From NCBI GenBank assembly GCA_964036195.1, contig OZ038457.1, positions 15,837,147 through 15,901,146 of the forward strand: a stretch of DNA of 64,000 nucleotides, written 5' to 3'. The notes beneath the pieces are model-generated. The model was not told the origin of the DNA. It saw only the letters and a program-made list of their open reading frames with translations, and made no database searches. The position numbers were made by a program, and so were the translations under genes. This DNA comes from Sphaerolaimus hirsutus. Taxonomy: Eukaryota; Nematoda; Chromadorea; Monhysterida; Sphaerolaimidae. Below, in pieces: positions 23,237 through 55,262 of the stretch (its first letter is position 1; each line of letters opens with the position of its first letter).

Positions 23237-26200
23237 ATGGCTGCTGTGGCGACCGACTGCCGCCGCGGCACGCTGATCTCGCTGCTCCAGCACGAGCCCA
23301 TATTGATTTCACGCGGCAGCACTGACTGCAACACCATAGCCGAGAGCGCCAGCCTGGAGGCCATGGAGGCGGCCGCACAGCGCAACGAGGAACGCAGCGA
23401 CGAGGAACACGAACAGCCGCAGAGGTTGGTGGGCACGTTTTGTTATTTACGTAAATATGGCTGGTGACAGTCCTGAGTAGGGTTGGCCGATGTTTTTTTT
23501 TAAACGTTTTTTTTTTTTTAAAACGTTTTTTTTTTTAAAAAAACATGACGTCCGAAATGTTTTTTTTTTAAAAAAAACATCGGCCGAAATTTTTAGTACT
23601 AAGCACTAGGTATTTTGCAAAATTTTTGCGCGCAAGCGCGCAATTTCACACACAAATTGACATTGGTGGTTGTTTTCATTGGTTTTGTTGCATTTTTAGT
23701 ATCAAAACATCCATTTCTATGTGCTACCATGGGTGAATAAGCCGACATATGTTGCTGTAATATAAAATATTGAGGTAATGTGCTTCCATGTACCTCCACA
23801 GTGTGTAACTTGACTCCCAAAGTAACAACCTCCTTTTATAACCTTGTTTGATCACCATTCCGTGCCAAACTTTACCTGAAGTCACGAACATTCGACTATA
23901 AGGCGATATACGAACGATATGTCGACGAAAAATGGATATTTTTGACACAAATCACCACTTATAATGCTATCATATGGCTCCACAGCCATTATATGGTCAT
24001 ATTTAACATCACAGAGTATTGCCAGTGTCTGATATACCTATATATGTTGACACTAGGTCCTATCTGGGAGCTTTTAAAAAAAACGTTTTTTTTTTTTAAA
24101 AACGTTTTTTTTAAAAAAAAAAACGTTTAAAAAAAAAAAAACATCGAGTTAAAAAAAACGTTTTTTTTCCAACCCTAGTCCTGAGCCCTGTAAAGTATAA
24201 AGTAAAGTGTCAAATGTTATGTGAAAGGTCAAACGAAAGAAAAAAGGGACGATTTTTTACTGGACTTTCTATGTCAATTGACACATCATTTGTCATGACA
24301 ATTGACACTTAACATTTGTCATGACAATTGACACTTTACATTTGTCATGACATTGACAGTTTGCATGACATTTTACATGACATTTGTTTGACACTACTTC
24401 ACACTTTACAGGGCTTGGCACTGCCCCCTGGAAAAACGTCGTTTCAAGTGACCTCGCTTTACGGAACTTTAAAAAAAGCAAATAAAGTGACGTGGGAACG
24501 TTTCAGGGTGCACTGGGTGGCGGGCGCGTCCGACTCTGCCGATGGATGCGATGGTTCCGCCGCGCCCGATCCCACTGTTTCCTGGTTCGTTTACTTAATT
24601 AATTTGCCACTCTGCTATGTGTGCGTGCGATTTTTGTGCTGGACTGTGCTATTGAAGTGCTAAATAGGGTTGGTCTGAAGCTTTTTTGGAAATTTCACTA
24701 ATTTTCATCGATTCCACTTCCGAGGTGGATTTAGGTGAAGCTAGAAGTTGTATCAAATTCTTGCCACTGTACTGTTATTTCTGCTAGATGAGTGTGGAAA
24801 CAATACCCCCCCCCCTCTTTCGTGGGTGAGACAGATGGTGGCATAAAGATGTAATAAAACGTTTTATGTGTGTGTTCTTTAAAAATGTGTTCTTTTGCGG
24901 CTGATGTCAACTAGCATTGTTTTCAGTTCTAGAAGTTGTATTCTGACCTGTGGATTCGTGTAACTAACTAATTTGACCCAATTCATGCAATAAATTGATC
25001 ATGCATTTTAGTTAAGATTGATGAAAAATAACTCCCTCTCGAATAACCCCCAATCAAAAAGTCGTCATTTCGTCATTTACCTTGCGCTTCAGTACAAAAA
25101 AAGTCTGCTAGCGATTTTTTTGATCGCATTTCATGTGCGACAATTGTCTGAATTATTTATAGCTTGAAAAAAATCGCTTACGAACCCTAGTCTGTGCATT
25201 TCTCATGTCTCGGTGCTGTCACTGTGGGATTTAATCAGAACGAAGGCGAAGTACCTAGTATAAATTTTTTATGAGATGAATGAGGGCAGCTGCGTTCCTT
25301 TTATACTCCGCGGGCCGCATGCTATATGCTTTTTTTTAACGAAGCGTTCCATCGTGACGTGAATATTGGCCACGACCAGGGTTGGCAAAATCTCAGAAAA
25401 AATGAAAATAAAATTAAAATAAAATGGAAAATTTAAGAATAAATTAAAATAAATTAAATGGAAAATTTCAAAAGAAAGATAAAAATTCGAATTTTTGTAA
25501 AATTATTGTAAAATTGTACAAAAATTTGTATTTTTGTAAAATTTAATAAAAATTCATATTTTTTGTAAAATATTTATCTTGTTACTTAAGCTTCTACGTG
25601 TTTTTTCGTGGAACTGTGGGCAGTCCCAAGCTTTGTTAAGTGTTAAATGTCATGTAAAATGTCATGCAAAGTGTCAATTGTCATGATGAATGTAAAGTAA
25701 AGTGTCAATTGTCAAGCAATCCAAATCTTATGTTCTGTATCCAAATCTTGTTGTTTGATAATTCAAATCTTATGTGAACAATTGGATACAAAAAAAAGAA
25801 GATTTGAATACAAAACACAAGCTTTGGATACAAAACCATAAGATTTGGATACACAATTTACACTTTGCATGGCATTTGTCATGACTATTACCACTTTACT
25901 TGACATTTGACATGTCACTTGACATTTTGCATGACAAACCACACATTTTTACCTTTGTCAGGACAATTGACACTTTGCATGACAATTTACAAATTCACCG
26001 CATACTCCAGTAGTCCTTCTACTGGAAATGCAAACCATTGTTATCAATAATTAAAATTTTACAATTGCAGCTAGCTAACAATACCTACTGCATGCAACTT
26101 TTGCAAAGTAATGGAAAAATTTGTCACACGTTTTTCATGTTTAGGTCTAATTATAACATTTTGCTGGCTTTGCATGCAAGATTCTGATTTTTTGTAAAAT

Positions 26201-29200: not shown

Positions 29201-32200
29201 AAAATTTTGCAAAATACCTAGTGCATAAGAACTAAAAAAAATTGCCGGCGCTTTTTTTTTAAAAAAAGCGCTGGGACCATAGCGCTTTTTTTTAAAAAAA
29301 AGCGGCGTTTTTTTAAAAAAAAGCGCTTGAAAAAGAGCGCTGGCCATCCCTAGCCAGTACACATCTAAAGCCAATACACATCTAGATAGAGTCCGTGGAT
29401 AAACAGCGCTTATCTACATGTTAGATTGATAAACGTTCATCACTTATTTAACATAGTACATTGTTCAGTGGCACTGGCTGCATGGATTGTTTCCATCGTC
29501 AGCGCGCCCGAATTTGGTTCGATGACAGTGATATTAGTAGACAGGCCCGCTCTAGACTGAGCGGTAAACAAAAAGGCATACGGGTCTACGTCTTTGTGTT
29601 TTCCGCCCACTGTAGAACGGGCGTATCAAATAATACGTAAATATCGTTATCCTAGATGTTTGATGGGTAGAATTAGATGGGTGGCGGGTTTAGATGTGGA
29701 ATGGGTCTAGATGTTAACTCGGCCTCAGTCTTTGTAACTATGTGAACAAGGCACAGTGTCATGTAATAGATAAATACGATACCCTCCTGCAGGGACGTAT
29801 CCAGGATTTTTGAGCGGGGGGGGCTGTTTGTTTACGGAGCCCGGCGAACGGGGGGGGGCTCAGCCCCCCCCCCCCTAAAATTTTACCTATAAAGTGAGGG
29901 AATGGCGCCATGGCGCTGGCGCCATTCGTAGGCGCCACGCCATGGCGCCATTGGCGTTGGCGCTGGCGCCAAAAGTCGCTTATTATGTATGTAAATACAG
30001 CTACATATAGAGCGACAGGCCGGCCATTTAGTGTATTTAATCCGGAATTGAGATTACAGGGTCGATTTTCTATAATACCTCTGTGAGATAGACGAATGCG
30101 CGCTTGCGCGCAAAATTTTTTACGCCACACCTTAAAAATTGCTACCAAAAGTTGATTTTCCCCGTGTTTTCCAAGTCCGACCCCGGGAGCGGGGGGGGCT
30201 GCAGCCCCCCCCCCGCCCCCCCCCCTGGATACGTCCTTGCCCTCCTGCGCATGCGCAACATGTGATATTTTATTCAGCCGTCTCATCCTGATAAAATGCC
30301 CTTCGCAATCGCACGCATGCACATGTACATTCGCGCAGTGCATTCTTGAATACAGCGCAGCGCGTCATGTACCGTATATTGTTGGATGAGATCCCCGGGG
30401 ATTGTTTTTGTGGATGATTGGAATGGGGAATTATTCGAGGGGGTGCTTGATTTCCATCCGAAATTTTGTAAGCATACAGTAAAAATAAGACTGGGATTCC
30501 ACCTATTAACGTCAACTTCATTTGCTATGTACCTAATGGCTGTCAAGCACTCAGTCCGAGTGCAGGTCAATTTTGTCTATTTTAAGCACACCGGGTCGTA
30601 GTCACATATTTACATGTATTTATTTTCGATTTTCTTATTTCCTCGGGTCGCTTAAAGGGGGTATTATTCGGGAGCAGTGTGTAAATATGTAGGCGTATAC
30701 ATTTGGCGGAATACAATTGCCGAGACAACCTCCATTTATGCTGTCCCTTTCTTGCTGTCGTACAATCTGGCGGAGGTACATAAAGCCGACAGCTTCTCTA
30801 TGTACATATGTACTTTTCATTTGCTGACGCCAGTGCCCTTTTCAGCTCTACAAGTACTCTTCGTGTTTTATTAAGAGTGACTGCTTGCTGACGTGATTGC
30901 TTTAGGGCTTTAGGTGGGCTTTATGCCTTTGCTGATGTACTATTTTTTTAAGTGTTTTTGGATGTACACAAATATGTAATGTCGTTTTTATTTGTGTTTC
31001 GTAATCAACACAGTTGCATATTTGTTTACTTATAAGGATTTGTACTTCGTCTAGCGGTTATTTAGGACACCACTTTCGTGTGAAAAGTAAACCGTATATT
31101 TACACACAACAATGCGAACGTGAACACTCGGATTCGGTAACTCAATCTCGCCATTACTCTTGCAGCCGGCAGTCGAATGACGACGACAGATCGGCCAGTC
31201 AGCAACCGGGTGCCACTCCCAGACCCTGTAAAGAGCCCTGTAAAATAAAATGTCATGCAAAGTGTCTAAAGTCATGGAAAATGCCCTGCCATTTCGCAGG
31301 GCATTTTCCATGACTTTAGACACTTTGCTAGACATTTGACATTTTACAGGGCTCTTTACAGGGTCTGGGACTGCCCTAGGTGAGCGTCCGCCCGCCGAAG
31401 TCTGCGCCAGCGGCGACGCGCATCGTTCGCGGCCCCACGATCGCAAGCAGAAGGACTGCCCCCAGCGCAACGGCAGCATGGCCAGCGAGCTCAACTTGGG
31501 CGCCGTCATTTACGAAACCCCAGGGAGTAGGAGCCAGGAGGTTGGTCTCTTGCGATGATTTTTCGGTGGCTCTGAGCATGGATATTGGAGGGTTACACGC
31601 TAGTTGACACTTGACAGTTGTGTGCCAACTGGTCTGTGTCAACTCCGATTTCGGTTTCACGTGTTGCTGAGCGATCTTCCAATACACTTGCCGTAACATT
31701 TATTTTTCTAGATTGCCGTAAGTGCATTTGGGGATCACTCTGCGACACGTGAAGCCGAAATCTGAGTTGACACACATGTGTCAACTAGTGTGTGGGCCGC
31801 CATTAATGTTCCTATCCATCTTCCAGGGGCTGGCGCAAACCACCTCGCACTACCCCTCGGTGGGTTCGCCGTTGCCCATGTCCTACTACACGATCCCGCC
31901 GGGCACGGGCCACGCGATGGTGGCCGCGCTGCAGAAGTGCGCCAGCGGGCCCGTGTCGCACCGGCGCGGCAGCACGTTCCACGGCGCCGCGCCCATGCAC
32001 CAGCCGCGCTGCTCCAGCCCGCTCAGACAGCACAGCTTGCAGATGCGGAATAATGATGCGGGTGAGTGATTGGGGGTTGGGGTTTTTGGAAGGTGGGGTG
32101 GGGGTCTCCAGGATTTTGACCATCACGGCGGTTGGATGGATAGCAGATCGTTCCTTCTGAGAGATAGCTGCAAAAATTATGTTTGGGGAGGGGGTTCGCG

Positions 32201-35200: not shown

Positions 35201-38200
35201 ACACGCTGCGCAGACACGCCGCACTGGCAGTGGCCAACTTGTGCGTTTACAGCGATTCCGAATGCCACCAGCGGGTGATAGCGAAAAAGTTGCCAGACTG
35301 GCTGTTTCTGCTCGCTTCCAACAGGGACGACATTACTTCATACTACGCCTGTTTAGCTGGTTGGTTATCGACGTATATTGTCTCCTAAATTTTTACCCCC
35401 CGTGCGGTTTGATAGATAGTAAATCGCTCCTCCGGAGGGATAGATAGATAGCTTGACGGTTTTGAGGGGGGTTGGAGACCCGTGCATTGTGCGTGTGACA
35501 GTGTTCAGCAGCATACAAACCCCTCCTACAGTGTGCATTCTGGCCTCGAACAAGGAGGCGGAGTCGGCGGTGAGCAAGTCGGGCACGTTGGCCCTGGTGG
35601 AGCCCTTCCTGCAGCGGCACAAGCCCGACAGCTTCCTCCGGGCCGATCACAAGCTGTCGCAGGGCCGGCCCAAAGAATGGCTTCAGAAAATGGTCGGTGC
35701 GGTGAACGCTTTTGCGGTGCCTTGGCAGTGTTTGAGTAGGTAGCGATTTGGTGTGTGAGTGCTGCATTTGTCATCGAACTTGTGTGCTTCCGTTAGGGCG
35801 TGGGCTGTTTTTTCTCTTGGTTGTTTCAATTTGGAAATTTATTTGTGCTATTCCGGTAGTGCAGGATTAGCACTACAAATATTGGCTATCGAGTAGTAAC
35901 ACATTGAATCACACATACAAACAGAGTTGATATAAATATGAGTCATTTATTGAATGGGATATGTGGGTGGGCGTGGGTAATGTGTGGTATGTGCGATTCA
36001 AATGTCAGTCTCTTTAGATTGTGTGATTTTGAGCTTACACCAAACACTTATTTATTCAAACCCGTCGTCCGAACAACGCCAATTATGCCCCAGTTACAGG
36101 TAGCTCTACCATTCTCATTCCTACTCTTGGATAATACTCCGTCATTCCTCCACTTGCACTCCGTCTCTTTTCACCCTCAGGTCTCTCTACTTACCGCGTC
36201 TCGTCGCGAAGTCAACGCGCTGGCTGCATTCCACTTTTGCATGGAGGGCATCATCAAGATGTCGCAGGACAGGTTGGAAGTGTTCCAAGAGATCGGCGCC
36301 GTGTCCGCGCTCAAGGATTTGGCTTCTTCACCGAGTGAAATCTCAGCGAAGTTGGCTAGCCAGGCGTTGACGATCATCGGGGAGGCGGTGCCGTACAAGC
36401 TCAGCCAGCAGGTGCCCCTGTGGTCGGTCGACGACGTCGCTTATTGGGTGGCCAAGGTGAACATTTGCTATACTCTGCTATATAACATATGTTTTTAAAT
36501 CTGCTAATCGGCCCTTTGCCATTACGCATGTAAACCCATCGCGCATGTAGACCCGGCACGCATTTAACTATACCCGGCAAGCTGAAACTGTGCAATAAAA
36601 CACATGACCTGGTTATTTTAAAGGTGGAAATATATAAAAAGTATGAGAATTAGGGTAAAATTGCTCAGAAGCGCTCCAGATAGTTGGATAGCTAGGCAAT
36701 TTGCGGGAGGGGATGTTCAGGGGAAAGTGGCCTAAAAATTGCCTCTAGGATAGGTAGATAACTTGGCGGTTTGGGGTGGGATTACCAACCCCAATTCTTA
36801 CCCTGCGGGTATAATGGGTCTACATGCGCAATAGGCCTGACCCCTGCTAATCATTTTTTTACTTTGGAATTTCTTTCTGCAGATCGGCTTTGAGCAATAT
36901 GTGCAAGCATTCCGCGACCAAATGGTGGACGGCGATTTGCTGCTGTTGTTGAAGGAAACCGAGCTTAGCAATGATATCGGCATGACCAGTTCGCTTTTGA
37001 GGAAGCGATTCATGAGAGAGTTGGGCGCTTTAAAAGTTGGTTTTTGGTGGAGGGTGAGATTTTATTAAACTGGACAGACAGATTGCTTTATAATGAATGA
37101 TACCATATTTTGATGAATTAGGTCACGTGAAAAACTGCATCAAATTCACCCGATATAGAAGCAATTTGATGTTATTTTATTCAGATTGGATATGGTAGAT
37201 TTCATTGTAAGGCGTAATGTCGCTGGAGTATACCTGATGTATATCCTGGCAACGTTTTTTATGGCTGAATCGATCTGGCTATCAGCAACAAGTTCTGGGC
37301 CAAGTAAATTTCGTACCCGATCTCTAAAAGTCGTCGCTTTCATTCGATTGTGTTTTCATCCAGATCTCGGCCGACTACTCGTCCGTGGACCCGACCGAGC
37401 TGGACTCGTTCCTGATGTCTGTCACTGAGGAACTGTCCGTGTACACGTACCAGATGCTCGAGGTGGGCGTCGACCGGTCCATGCTGCCCGCGCTCACCGA
37501 CGACATCATGCAGAGCACTTGCGGCATCAAGAACCCCGTGCACAGGGCCAAGCTGCTGCACTCGTTGCAGGTACTACCGACCATGTGCCTGTAGTCATGT
37601 GGACCCGCTAGTCATGTAGACCCCCAGTCATGTATTTTAGGGGGGGGGATTAGCGCGTGGTTTACATAATTAGTGGAGTACATAGCTCGGGCCGCAGTGC
37701 GTGTGAACTCACTAATGTTTTTGTTGCTTTTTTCATGATACCGCTCGAAGAAAAATTTAAAAACTCACAAATCATTTGTTACATATTTGAGTTTTTAAAA
37801 TTTTCTTAAAGTAGCGTCATACAAATTTCGACAAAAACAATAGTGAGTGCACATGCACTGCGGTCCGTGCTATGTACTCTACTAATAATGTAAACCACCG
37901 CGCTAATCCCCCTAAAATACATGACCGGTAGATCTACATGACTAGTAGGCTTACGTCGTCCTACCCAACTTTTGTCAAACGCACATTTGTTATACCTAAT
38001 TCAACATGCCGCAGGACTGCAAAACGATGGAAGACATGGAGATTGCTGTTCTATCGAAGCAGATCGACATATTCATTTCATACCGGCGGCGGGACGGCAA
38101 CCAGATGGCCAGCCTGCTCAAAGTGCTGCTGCAGCTGCGCGGCTACAAAGTTTTCATCGATGTCGATAGGCTGTATGCTGGCCAGTTTGACACGTCGCTG

Positions 38201-40436: not shown

Positions 40437-43400
40437 TCACTCCCTCCACTTGCTAATGTCAATGCCGGGTATCGCGTTGCAATTGGCAGTCGCCCCAGCA
40501 TTGTTGGCGAACATAAAGGCGTCGCGCGGCGCCGCGCCAAAGGCCTCGCCGGAGTCGCACAGGACCCTGGCGAGGGTGGCCTTCTTTAACTCTGCCTGCT
40601 GCTCTGAAGTGAACACGTCGGCAGACTCGTACCATAGTCTGCGGGCGAGGCGGGGGGGTGTTCCGATTGGAGGATTGCGGGGCGTTTTGTGTGATGCTGG
40701 TGAGCAACGTTGGCAAGCAAATTTGGAGATGTGTGTGAAACCCTTCCAAAACATACATACGACTTGTTCAAAATTGTCCAAAAAATAGCAAAATTGATTC
40801 TATTTTTTCAAAGAAAAATCTGATTTTTTATCACATTTTGGAGAAAAATAAAAAAAATGCTTTCGGAGGGTGCGCCGTCGTTAGTGGCGAGTAGCGTTGG
40901 CAAAGTCACTGCGAAAGTTTTTTTGAAGGGCACTAGTTTTCAATTCCTATTTATTTTAAATCCATTTTATGTTTTAGAATTTTTAGTCATTTGAAAGTTG
41001 TTGAAAAGTTGTCGATGTCGCATTCGATGCGTTTACATCAAATCTACGGTTGCAGTTGAAAAGCCGAGTGGCATTCCTTCAACAACCGCCCTGGAATTAC
41101 ACAAAGTTTCTGACAGCCACCCCGTAGTTAATTTACACGTACCGGTCTCCGTCCCTGAGTCGCTTGAACTGGTCGCCGATGAGGCAGGCGAGCGTGGGGC
41201 CGATCATGCCGCCCGCCACCGGGTCCTCCAGCATCGCGCCCACGTACAGGTCGATGTTGTCTGCGTGCCAAGTTGGACCGTGCGCGTCGCGAAAAATGAA
41301 AATGAAACTTGGACAAAGACGTTTTCATTGTCTGACAAATTTGTATGAAGATGGTTAATTTTATCACAAAATAACTTGGTTTGTTCAATTGATATGAGTT
41401 TGAGGCTATGGTTTGAGTTCCCTTAAGCAGGAACATAATGCAGTAATCTGAAATGAGTTTTCTTGTGGTGGCACCTTTATGGTAAATAATTTCTCTGTAT
41501 TCTCATCATCAAATATTTTTCCCTCGAATAATTTTTTGTGTAAAATAATCTGACAAAAATGGCTTGTTATGTTGGTTATAAACCATATTTGATGCACTCA
41601 GTTGATAGAAACAAGCTTAAAAATTTTGACCAAATAATAATTCCCCTCCTTGAGGTATTCCCTCCTTGAATAATTCCCCCTCGAATAATTCCGCCCTCGA
41701 ACAGTCCCCTCTCAACAAAGTCTGACGAAAAAAACTATTCCGAGTAAATACGGTATGTGTACGGCCATCACCCTAAGACTACTCACCGGGACTTCCATAC
41801 ATGTTCTGCAAACTAGACCGCGTCTCAAAGGTGGATATCTCGTTGGCCAAGTCGTTCTGTATATTAGTAGCACGCGGCAGCCCGCAAAATGCGCGCCAAT
41901 CGTTGTACGAGGGCAGGCCGTGGTCGCGGCCGCGCTGTATGTTGATGGCGCACAGGTCCGTGTTGCCGAACATGCGCTCGGTGATTGCTGGTGTGAGCCG
42001 CTGCGGCATCTTCACTGCGGTTGCCATCAAACCACGTAGAACAGAGTCCACGCCAGCTTCGGTCAGGCGATCTGCGAACAATTGACACTTGTCTTAAATT
42101 TGTCATGACAATTAACACTTAACATGACATTTTACCTGACATTTGACACTTTACTTTTCAGTTTACAATGTCTGGGATTGGCACCAGGGGGCAGTCCCAA
42201 GCCCTGTAAAGTATAAAGTAAAGTGTCAAATGTAAAGTCAAATGCAAAGTAAAGTGTCAATCAAAACAAAAAAGAAAAGATTTTATTACTGAACTTTGCA
42301 TGACAATTGACAGTTTACTTTGCATTTGACTTTACATTTGACACTTTACTTTGCATTTGACTTTACATTTGACACTTTACTTTGCATTTGACTTTACATT
42401 TGACACTTTACTTTGCATTTGACTTTACATTTGACACTTTACTTTACACTTTACAGGGCTTGGGACTGCCACCAGGATGACATGCACAAGAAAACAAACG
42501 CTTCCCCCGAAATACGTCAGCCCGGAATGTGTGTTGTGTGAACAAAGAATTAAACATGAAAACTATTGTTGTTTGTGATTGGCAACGCAACTATGCATTT
42601 ACTTGGTTGTGTAACTATTTATACATTTTAATTTAAAATGTTGACGTGTTTCACGATTGATTACATTTATTTACCTACCTATGTATAAATTCATCATGGC
42701 GATTCATCAAAAAATTCTGGCGAAATAATAGTTCCCTCTCCTGACTTCACCCTCCCTTCGAAATAGCCTGACGTCTGACCCATGTTGTTAAAACGTATTT
42801 ACTTTTACTCGATAAATACGTATACTCGAGTACCGAGTAAATACGTTTACGTTTCCTCCGAAAAAGTTCTGGTACTCGCTTTTACGTATACTTTTTGAAA
42901 GTACTCGAGTACAGAAAACGTAATTTAGATCGTTTTTTATATAGGTTTTTAAAGGCGTAGAAGGGAAAAAAGGGAGAAAATGTGCTAAAATTTTTGGAAA
43001 CTAGTCGAAAATGAGTATAGAACGAAATACATAGTCAAAAATTGCGTAAAATAAGCAAAAAGTTATGAAAATGAGTGATTTTTGAGTGACATTTCTCGAA
43101 AAGTATGGCGACATTTCTCAAAAGTACTTACGTTTACGTTTTCTGCGAGGAAAAGTACGTTTACTTACGTTTACTCATGAGTAAAAGTAAGAAAATTTCT
43201 TTACGTTTCTCGAAAATTTCTCTACTCAAGGCGTGAGTAAAAAATAAATACTTTACGTTTAGGTATACTTTGAAAAAGTTCGGTACTTTTAACAACTCTG
43301 GTCTGACCAAGGTGGCAAAAAATAAATCCCCTGGAGTTATTTCGAAGAAATACGGTATTTACATGCAAACAGACTTATGTTGAATATGCCGTCTCCAAAG

Positions 43401-55089: not shown

Positions 55090-55262
55090 GTCAGGTGGCA
55101 CTCCCAAGCCCTGTAAAGTGTAAAGTGTCAAATGTCATGTAAAATGTCATGCAAAGTGTCAATTGTCATGCAAGGTTCAGGAATAAAATCTTGTATTTTT
55201 TGTTTTGATTGACATTTTACATGACATTTGACACTTTACTTTTCAAGGTTTGGAACTGCCCC
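55090..55262. mobile_element. MITE1 copy (short)
   Basis: CAGGTGGCACTCCCAAGCCC at the left and AAGGTTTGGAACTGCCCCCT at the right, with GTCATGTAAAATGTCATGC inside. About the same size as the copy that forms the SARM1 intron. Its left end reads CAG|GTGGCA, a good match to a 5' splice site. Confidence 0.8.

Follow-up and report, generated by a model that had tools for sequence, protein, structure and literature searches.

The window, i.e., the whole 64-kb stretch of Sphaerolaimus hirsutus DNA analyzed here, contains a gene that we identified as SARM1 from an exon at about 36193 to 36462, which matches tir-1 in the Protein Data Bank (PDB). Between two coding-like stretches assigned to this gene, positions 31210 to 31379 form a single near-perfect hairpin of 170 nt that reaches from edge to edge. 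Two nested pairs of inverted arms fill this interval, the outer pair (31214 to 31246 with 31341 to 31373) being 33 nt long and 97% complementary and the inner pair (31248 to 31289 with 31296 to 31337) 42 nt long and 95% complementary. The RNA of positions 31166 to 31420 folds with an energy of -161.5 kcal/mol (z score of -19.4), and none of 200 shuffled sequences folded equally well. This bears out the original prediction that a proposed intron at this place is a hairpin from end to end. A GT is present at 31210 and an AG at 31378. Joining 31209 to 31380 gives a stop-free frame, while all three unspliced frames of 31166 to 31545 contain stops, as had also been predicted. Since moving the join by one base also leaves the frame free of stops (moving it by two brings in a stop), an open frame counts for little on its own. 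The GC content of the flanks is 0.64 (31166 to 31209) and 0.68 (31380 to 31540), compared with 0.39 upstream, and the joined frame has a GC content of 0.66, 0.54, and 0.79 at the three codon positions, i.e., an excess at the third. That the frame runs on into the later SARM1 exons was judged by eye. All features are collected in Table 1. Another, unrelated inverted repeat, with arms GTTGACAC..., was seen by eye in the next SARM1 intron (31541 to 31826).

Table 1. Features of the SARM1 locus and further copies of the element in the window
Feature	Position	Strand	Evidence
SARM1 coding exon, left part	31166..31209	+	Open frame, GC 0.64; phase 1 end ...CCG G/; acceptor CTTGCAG directly before
Left target copy CGG (family: CAG or CTG)	31207..31209	+	Family register; diverged in the SARM1 copy
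Proposed intron of introner type, GT...AG, 170 nt; comprises the element and the right target copy	31210..31379	+	Hairpin arms, fold, identity to consensus
Outer left hairpin arm (terminal repeat)	31214..31246	+	Inverted-arm search
Outer right hairpin arm	31341..31373	+	Inverted-arm search
Right target copy TAG (family: CAG or CTG), putative source of the 3' AG	31377..31379	+	By eye
SARM1 coding exon, right part	31380..31540	+	Open frame ERPPAEV...SRSQE, GC 0.68; end GGAG/GTTGGT, phase 0
SARM1 exon of the ARM-SAM region, used to identify the gene	36193..36462	+	PDB 8p2m (tir-1), E value 7.1e-32
Decayed sister copy with a degraded left tip and GCCCC/CTG as its right tip	24172..24427	+	Sequence
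Sister-subfamily copy CTG/GTGGCAG...GACTGCCCC/CTG	42188..42472	-	Sequence
Sister-subfamily copy CAG/GTGGCAC...AACTGCCCC/CTG	55095..55262	+	Sequence

The element family and its target site

The SARM1 hairpin is 92.3% identical to the consensus of a repeat family (184 nt, GTGCCACTCCC...GGGAGTGCCCC, with the tips also given as GTGCCACTCCCAGACCCTGTAAAA...TTTTACAGGGTCTGGGAGTGCCCC), which was derived from 65 copies of 150 to 215 nt. The consensus is a nearly perfect hairpin with unequal tips, the left one reading GTGCCA and thus offering a GT and the right one reading GTGCCCC, with a run of CCCC. The 65-copy alignment is conserved up to both tips (0.62 to 1.0 over the left 24 positions and 0.63 to 1.0 over the right 24). 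Most of the aligned loci were picked by their exact left tip; in loci L031 to L080 and L082 to L101, from two contigs, this was the selection criterion, which by itself guarantees a canonical left end. Searching the whole 348-Mb assembly with a 24-base tip pattern, allowing up to 3 mismatches, yielded 18,742 matches (9415 forward and 9327 reverse; control, 0), which corresponds to roughly nine to nineteen thousand copies, as either end of an element may match. The 64-kb window has 8 tip-like sequences, where 0.01 would be expected. No exact match to a 20-base tip pattern was found in viral contigs. The genes of the assembly are animal (SARM1, an animal haem peroxidase, a rhodopsin-type receptor, and bestrophin).

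Some copies lie in arrangements of their own. Inspection by eye showed a partial second relative (42098 to 42188) adjoining the copy at 42188 to 42472, with one CTG common to both, as though one element had landed in the target site of the other. Copies L021 to L024, all four with the same flanks, lie within about 90 kb (G000:C4, 0.88 to 0.97 Mb); L021 and L022, the only pair compared, are 99% identical over 1.6 kb, pointing to a repeated segment bearing the element. A cluster of left tips (L053 to L057; G000:C1, 16.51 to 16.53 Mb), two of them 875 bases apart, has no right end within 900 bases and is perhaps a longer relative or an array. Locus L081 (G000:C762) is on the mitochondrial contig, which has COX1 (Pfam) and then, by eye, an ATP6-like frame and repeats. 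This COX1 is open under genetic code 5 and likewise under codes 4, 9, and 13, AGR was judged by eye to stand for serine, and Rfam gave no match on the COX1 locus.

Before counting, we left out opposite-strand repeats (L006, L008, L011, L017, and L029), doubles (L070 and L074), L081, and repeated segments (L022 to L024 and L054 to L057); removal of five copies with identical or too short flanks took the number from 94 to 89 unique copies. A CAG or CTG triplet (CWG) stands on the left in 77 of these and on the right in 67. Both triplets are CWG in 60 copies and agree in 46 of them (Fisher P value of 5.7e-5), the combinations being CAG/CAG in 26, CTG/CTG in 20, CTG/CAG in 9, and CAG/CTG in 5. C precedes the triplet in 19 of the 26 CAG/CAG copies and G follows it in 19 of the 20 CTG/CTG copies; the target is therefore CCAG, hit in either orientation. 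A duplication of 3 bp fits the copies, and one of 4 bp fits equally well in those with G after CTG or C before CAG, the two lengths being indistinguishable there because the first base of the element is G and its last is C. The left and right flanks agree with an identity of 0.88, 0.61, and 0.82 over the triplet positions and of 0.61 and 0.54 at the positions beside them, where a flank is set against the G that opens the element or the C that closes it; these neighbors match because C precedes the left triplet (54 of 89) and G follows the right one (53 of 89) in most copies. A longer, hAT-like duplication was rejected, since beyond the triplet's neighbors the identity falls to 0.16 to 0.39.

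Sites without the element point the same way for one copy. The diverged copy L034:274 lies inside a dispersed repeat. Of the 20 alignment rows for its empty sites, 14 (from 13 places) read a single CTG without any extra base, three, which list one place three times, read TTG, and three are gapped at this point. For a second copy (L075:790), four empty-site rows read GGG or GGA and none CTG, and for a copy in the window, two rows matched neighboring element sequence, not an empty site. The family carries the signature of transposition, namely, a target duplication and inverted ends. A zebrafish Harbinger has a CWG target. The short CWG duplication suggests a relative of PIF/Harbinger, whose MITEs have a 3-bp target duplication according to the part of the literature source used here (PMC2213677). 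No transposase was recognized by eye among the open frames of 11 loci without a near right end.

Proteins rejoined across the element

Several copies sit in sense orientation within conserved coding sequence, and the proteins rejoin there. When the stretch from GT to CWG was removed, 8 of the 31 tested copies gave a match to a homologous protein that runs on through the junction, above the curated cutoff or by PDB comparison. These 8 copies lie in genes for PRP8, a lipase, a carnitine acyltransferase, a COMM domain protein, bestrophin, and a transporter of the major facilitator superfamily (MFS) and at two places of one chondroitin-synthase gene. PRP8 (L069), a highly conserved protein of the spliceosome that was compared with the PDB only, is cut at KTEDP^DLPAFY (the caret marks the junction), and both alignments displayed are gapless there, with E values of 7e-93 for the best match (a chain with two stretches) and 3.9e-47 for 8ro0, which we take to be the C. 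elegans structure. The lipase (L045) is cut at TRP^VIFLQHG and matches gastric lipase with an E value of 2.4e-20, with a one-residue gap two residues ahead of the junction, and the Pfam family with 2.4e-27. For the two copies of the chondroitin-synthase-like (CHGN) gene the Pfam values are 4.8e-16 and 4.5e-15, the second also having a PDB match of 1.2e-8. The remaining junction-crossing Pfam matches are to carnitine acyltransferase (1.8e-16), bestrophin (1.4e-22, gapless at the junction when compared with the PDB), the COMM domain (4.1e-5), and MFS (7.6e-9).

The Pfam comparison covered 30 sense peptides, of which 10 were coding-looking ones picked by eye and 20 were taken from the 90 sense frames, with one hand-chosen frame per copy. 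A match at an E value of 0.01 or lower was obtained for 12 of the 30. It crossed the junction above the curated cutoff in 7 and below it in 2 (a zinc finger in L012 and Reeler in L003), and it was one sided in 3 (L062, L048, and L044). The other 18, among them the SARM1 junction peptide, had no Pfam match, and the antisense peptides (10 of 76 frames) matched no Pfam family. Frames of at least 110 amino acids across the junction occur in 29 of 90 sense and 9 of 76 antisense cases (P value of 0.003, to be read with the frames within one copy not being independent).

Two lipase paralogues 6 kb apart (L044 and L045; G000:C1, about 12.06 Mb) share the codon and the phase at which an element interrupts them, with junctions APRP^VVFMQHG and QTRP^VIFLQHG. 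Past the junction, 69 bases of their exon DNA align at 88% identity and the stretch ahead of it gives no DNA alignment, while the intervening parts, of 196 and 326 nt, are 77 to 86% alike where they can be aligned. The simplest reading would be that the element inserted once, ahead of the gene duplication, and that its inside then changed under a constant border and frame, as a working intron would be expected to do; independent insertions of two elements into this target are possible. In addition, L069 and L070 (G000:C1, 22.20 and 22.24 Mb) share 3,251 bases at 100% identity, each with a PRP8 exon and the element, which is either a very recent duplication or an assembly duplicate.

Probable intron birth and the predicted 3' splice site

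Taken together, the sequences make it very likely that the SARM1 intron arose by insertion of a nonautonomous cut-and-paste transposon of an introner family. Insertion into a CAG target in sense orientation would give the order CAG/GTGCCA...GCCCC CAG/, in which GT is the left tip of the element and AG belongs to the copied target. Removal from GT to CAG leaves one uninterrupted target and hence the old exon. The spliceosome would thus use the GT of the left tip and the AG of the target copy, with a putative branch point in the TTTTAC run about 22 nt ahead of the end, and sense insertions into CAG would be nearly silent and could persist as introns. The SARM1 copy and 5 of the 8 well-supported exonic copies start with GT and end with AG; the other 3 end in TG. 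At SARM1, the target copies (CGG and TAG) may have drifted after the insertion, and splicing would be compatible with both. The right tip is one C short here (GCCC-TAG versus GCCCC-CAG), so the family's fixed register would read AGG. Counting against the model are the look of GTGCCA as a weak donor, the other frame-keeping splice pairs, the differing target copies of SARM1 and its peptide without a family match, the 3 exonic copies that end in TG, the 18 sense peptides without a Pfam match, the empty-site rows of L075:790, and the gap in the lipase alignment.

The original prediction had placed both splice sites in the terminal repeats. This held for the GT, which lies in the left tip; the right tip is a CCCC run, and the AG comes from the duplicated target that adjoins the right terminal repeat, so that the repeats do not supply both sites. 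Its reading of the element as introner-like gained support from other copies, which interrupt conserved coding sequence at exact codons, and from the empty paralogous sites of one copy, which show the short duplication. In each of the 8 exonic copies, both borders fall at a codon junction of a protein match. As in introners, similarity appears to run to both splice borders (65-copy alignment and 8 exonic copies), and protein continuity in 8 of 31 copies indicates insertion into exons with creation of an intron. Judged by these features, the family is an introner family, of a known kind, in an animal genome.

Splicing might use other sites, i.e., a GTAAA donor 18 nt inside the element and/or a GAG acceptor 9 nt before its end, the tips then adding a few codons. 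Pairing the inner donor with the exact acceptor preserves the frame in 9 of 14 copies, SARM1 included, and the exact donor with the earlier acceptor in 8 of 14, each among the first five pairs listed; moreover, Aureococcus introners add 12 bp in the sections of the survey used here (PMC9860276), and the lipase alignment shows one extra residue near the junction. Against this, the exact ends align PRP8 and bestrophin to their homologues without a gap at the junction, and 3 to 6 extra residues within KTEDPDLPAFY of PRP8 are improbable. SARM1 has GACTG at the place of the GAG, so this acceptor is absent there and the inner donor is present. We therefore consider the use of other sites unlikely.

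It is quite unlikely that positions 31166 to 31209 are not a SARM1 coding exon and that the element is located in a 5' untranslated region or a promoter. The SARM1 peptide without a family match and the reading of the onward frame by eye leave room for this, whereas the step in GC content at 31166 and the third-position excess in the joined frame speak for coding sequence.

The element could instead have invaded an existing intron that was then trimmed by deletions down to the element alone. As the SARM1 target copies differ, the flanks cannot settle the SARM1 case alone. In the family, however, CWG abuts both element ends in 60 of 89 copies (exonic position being established for a minority), the empty paralogues of one copy hold a single CTG and nothing else, and the same edge-to-edge trimming would be needed in several unrelated genes, which makes this history very unlikely. 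For the family as a whole, the filling of older introns is unlikely because the elements lie inside continuous protein domains. Finally, that the element simply stays in the exon, in a broken allele or gene copy or read as exon, would fit the CTG-ended exonic copies without an AG at the end (L037:2545 with no frame-keeping pair and L015 with a far one only) but is highly improbable given the stops inside the element in the coding frames of SARM1, L058, and L015, the open and conserved flanks of PRP8 and others, and the two lipase paralogues, which keep border and frame though their elements differ. The SARM1 intron is very probably a product of the introner family.

The CCAG target can be read on either strand, so that a sense insertion may end in CTG rather than CAG, and a CTG right end is found in 25 of the 60 copies with CWG on both sides. 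Three of the 8 well-supported exonic copies (L058, L037:2545, and L015), in bestrophin, one of the chondroitin-synthase places, and an MFS transporter, have CTG after the element and no AG at the predicted end. In L058, a GAG acceptor nine bases earlier is possible, and its use would add three codons. Within the range searched, L037:2545 offers no GT-AG pair that keeps the frame and L015 a far one only. Such copies may be recent and harmful, other sites may be used, or TG may be accepted. Tentatively, and with less than even confidence, we suggest that this animal routinely removes GT-TG introns, in which case one transposon family would both make introns and relax the 3' splice rule; the long hairpin itself would perhaps bring both exon borders together. 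According to the part of the source used here, 36 human genes have TG as an alternative acceptor (PMC2374985).

No paper on an introner family of the SARM1 type was among the literature matches listed. The introners of Huff et al. (2016) reportedly have target duplications and/or terminal repeats. In the sections used here of a survey of 3,325 eukaryotic genomes, introners were found in only two animal groups, with copepods named (Gozashti et al. 2022, PMC9860276). Like introners of that survey, the SARM1-type element is a nonautonomous DNA element with exonic copies and a target duplication in their range of 3 to 9 bp, and its splicing would restore the old coding sequence; unlike theirs, its splice sites are inferred from sequence. 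The closest match there is the Chrysochromulina type, with its own 5' site and a 3' site from the target; that family lacks terminal repeats, whereas the element described here has clear ones, a CCAG target, and an animal host (PMC9860276). The copepod Eurytemora affinis has many idiosyncratic, apparently recent introns, with GA and GG donors in about 12% of the introns of ten genes (Robertson 2017, PMC5714493), so that S. hirsutus resembles it as an animal with apparently recent introns but differs in the GT donor at the element tip. The introner elements of the protist Amoebophrya are hairpin introns with direct repeats of 3 to 5 nt at the exon borders, many without GT-AG; in the portion of that report used here, no family-specific inverted repeat was detected, in contrast to the one abundant family of S. 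hirsutus (PMC7789003).

The family is large, its host is an animal, its mechanism is easy to read, and the CAG and CTG ends of one element provide a natural control. For gene annotators, it is a warning that exons holding such elements may be mismodeled. With such a family, one could measure in a single genome how introns are born, what this costs, and how tolerant the 3' splice site is.
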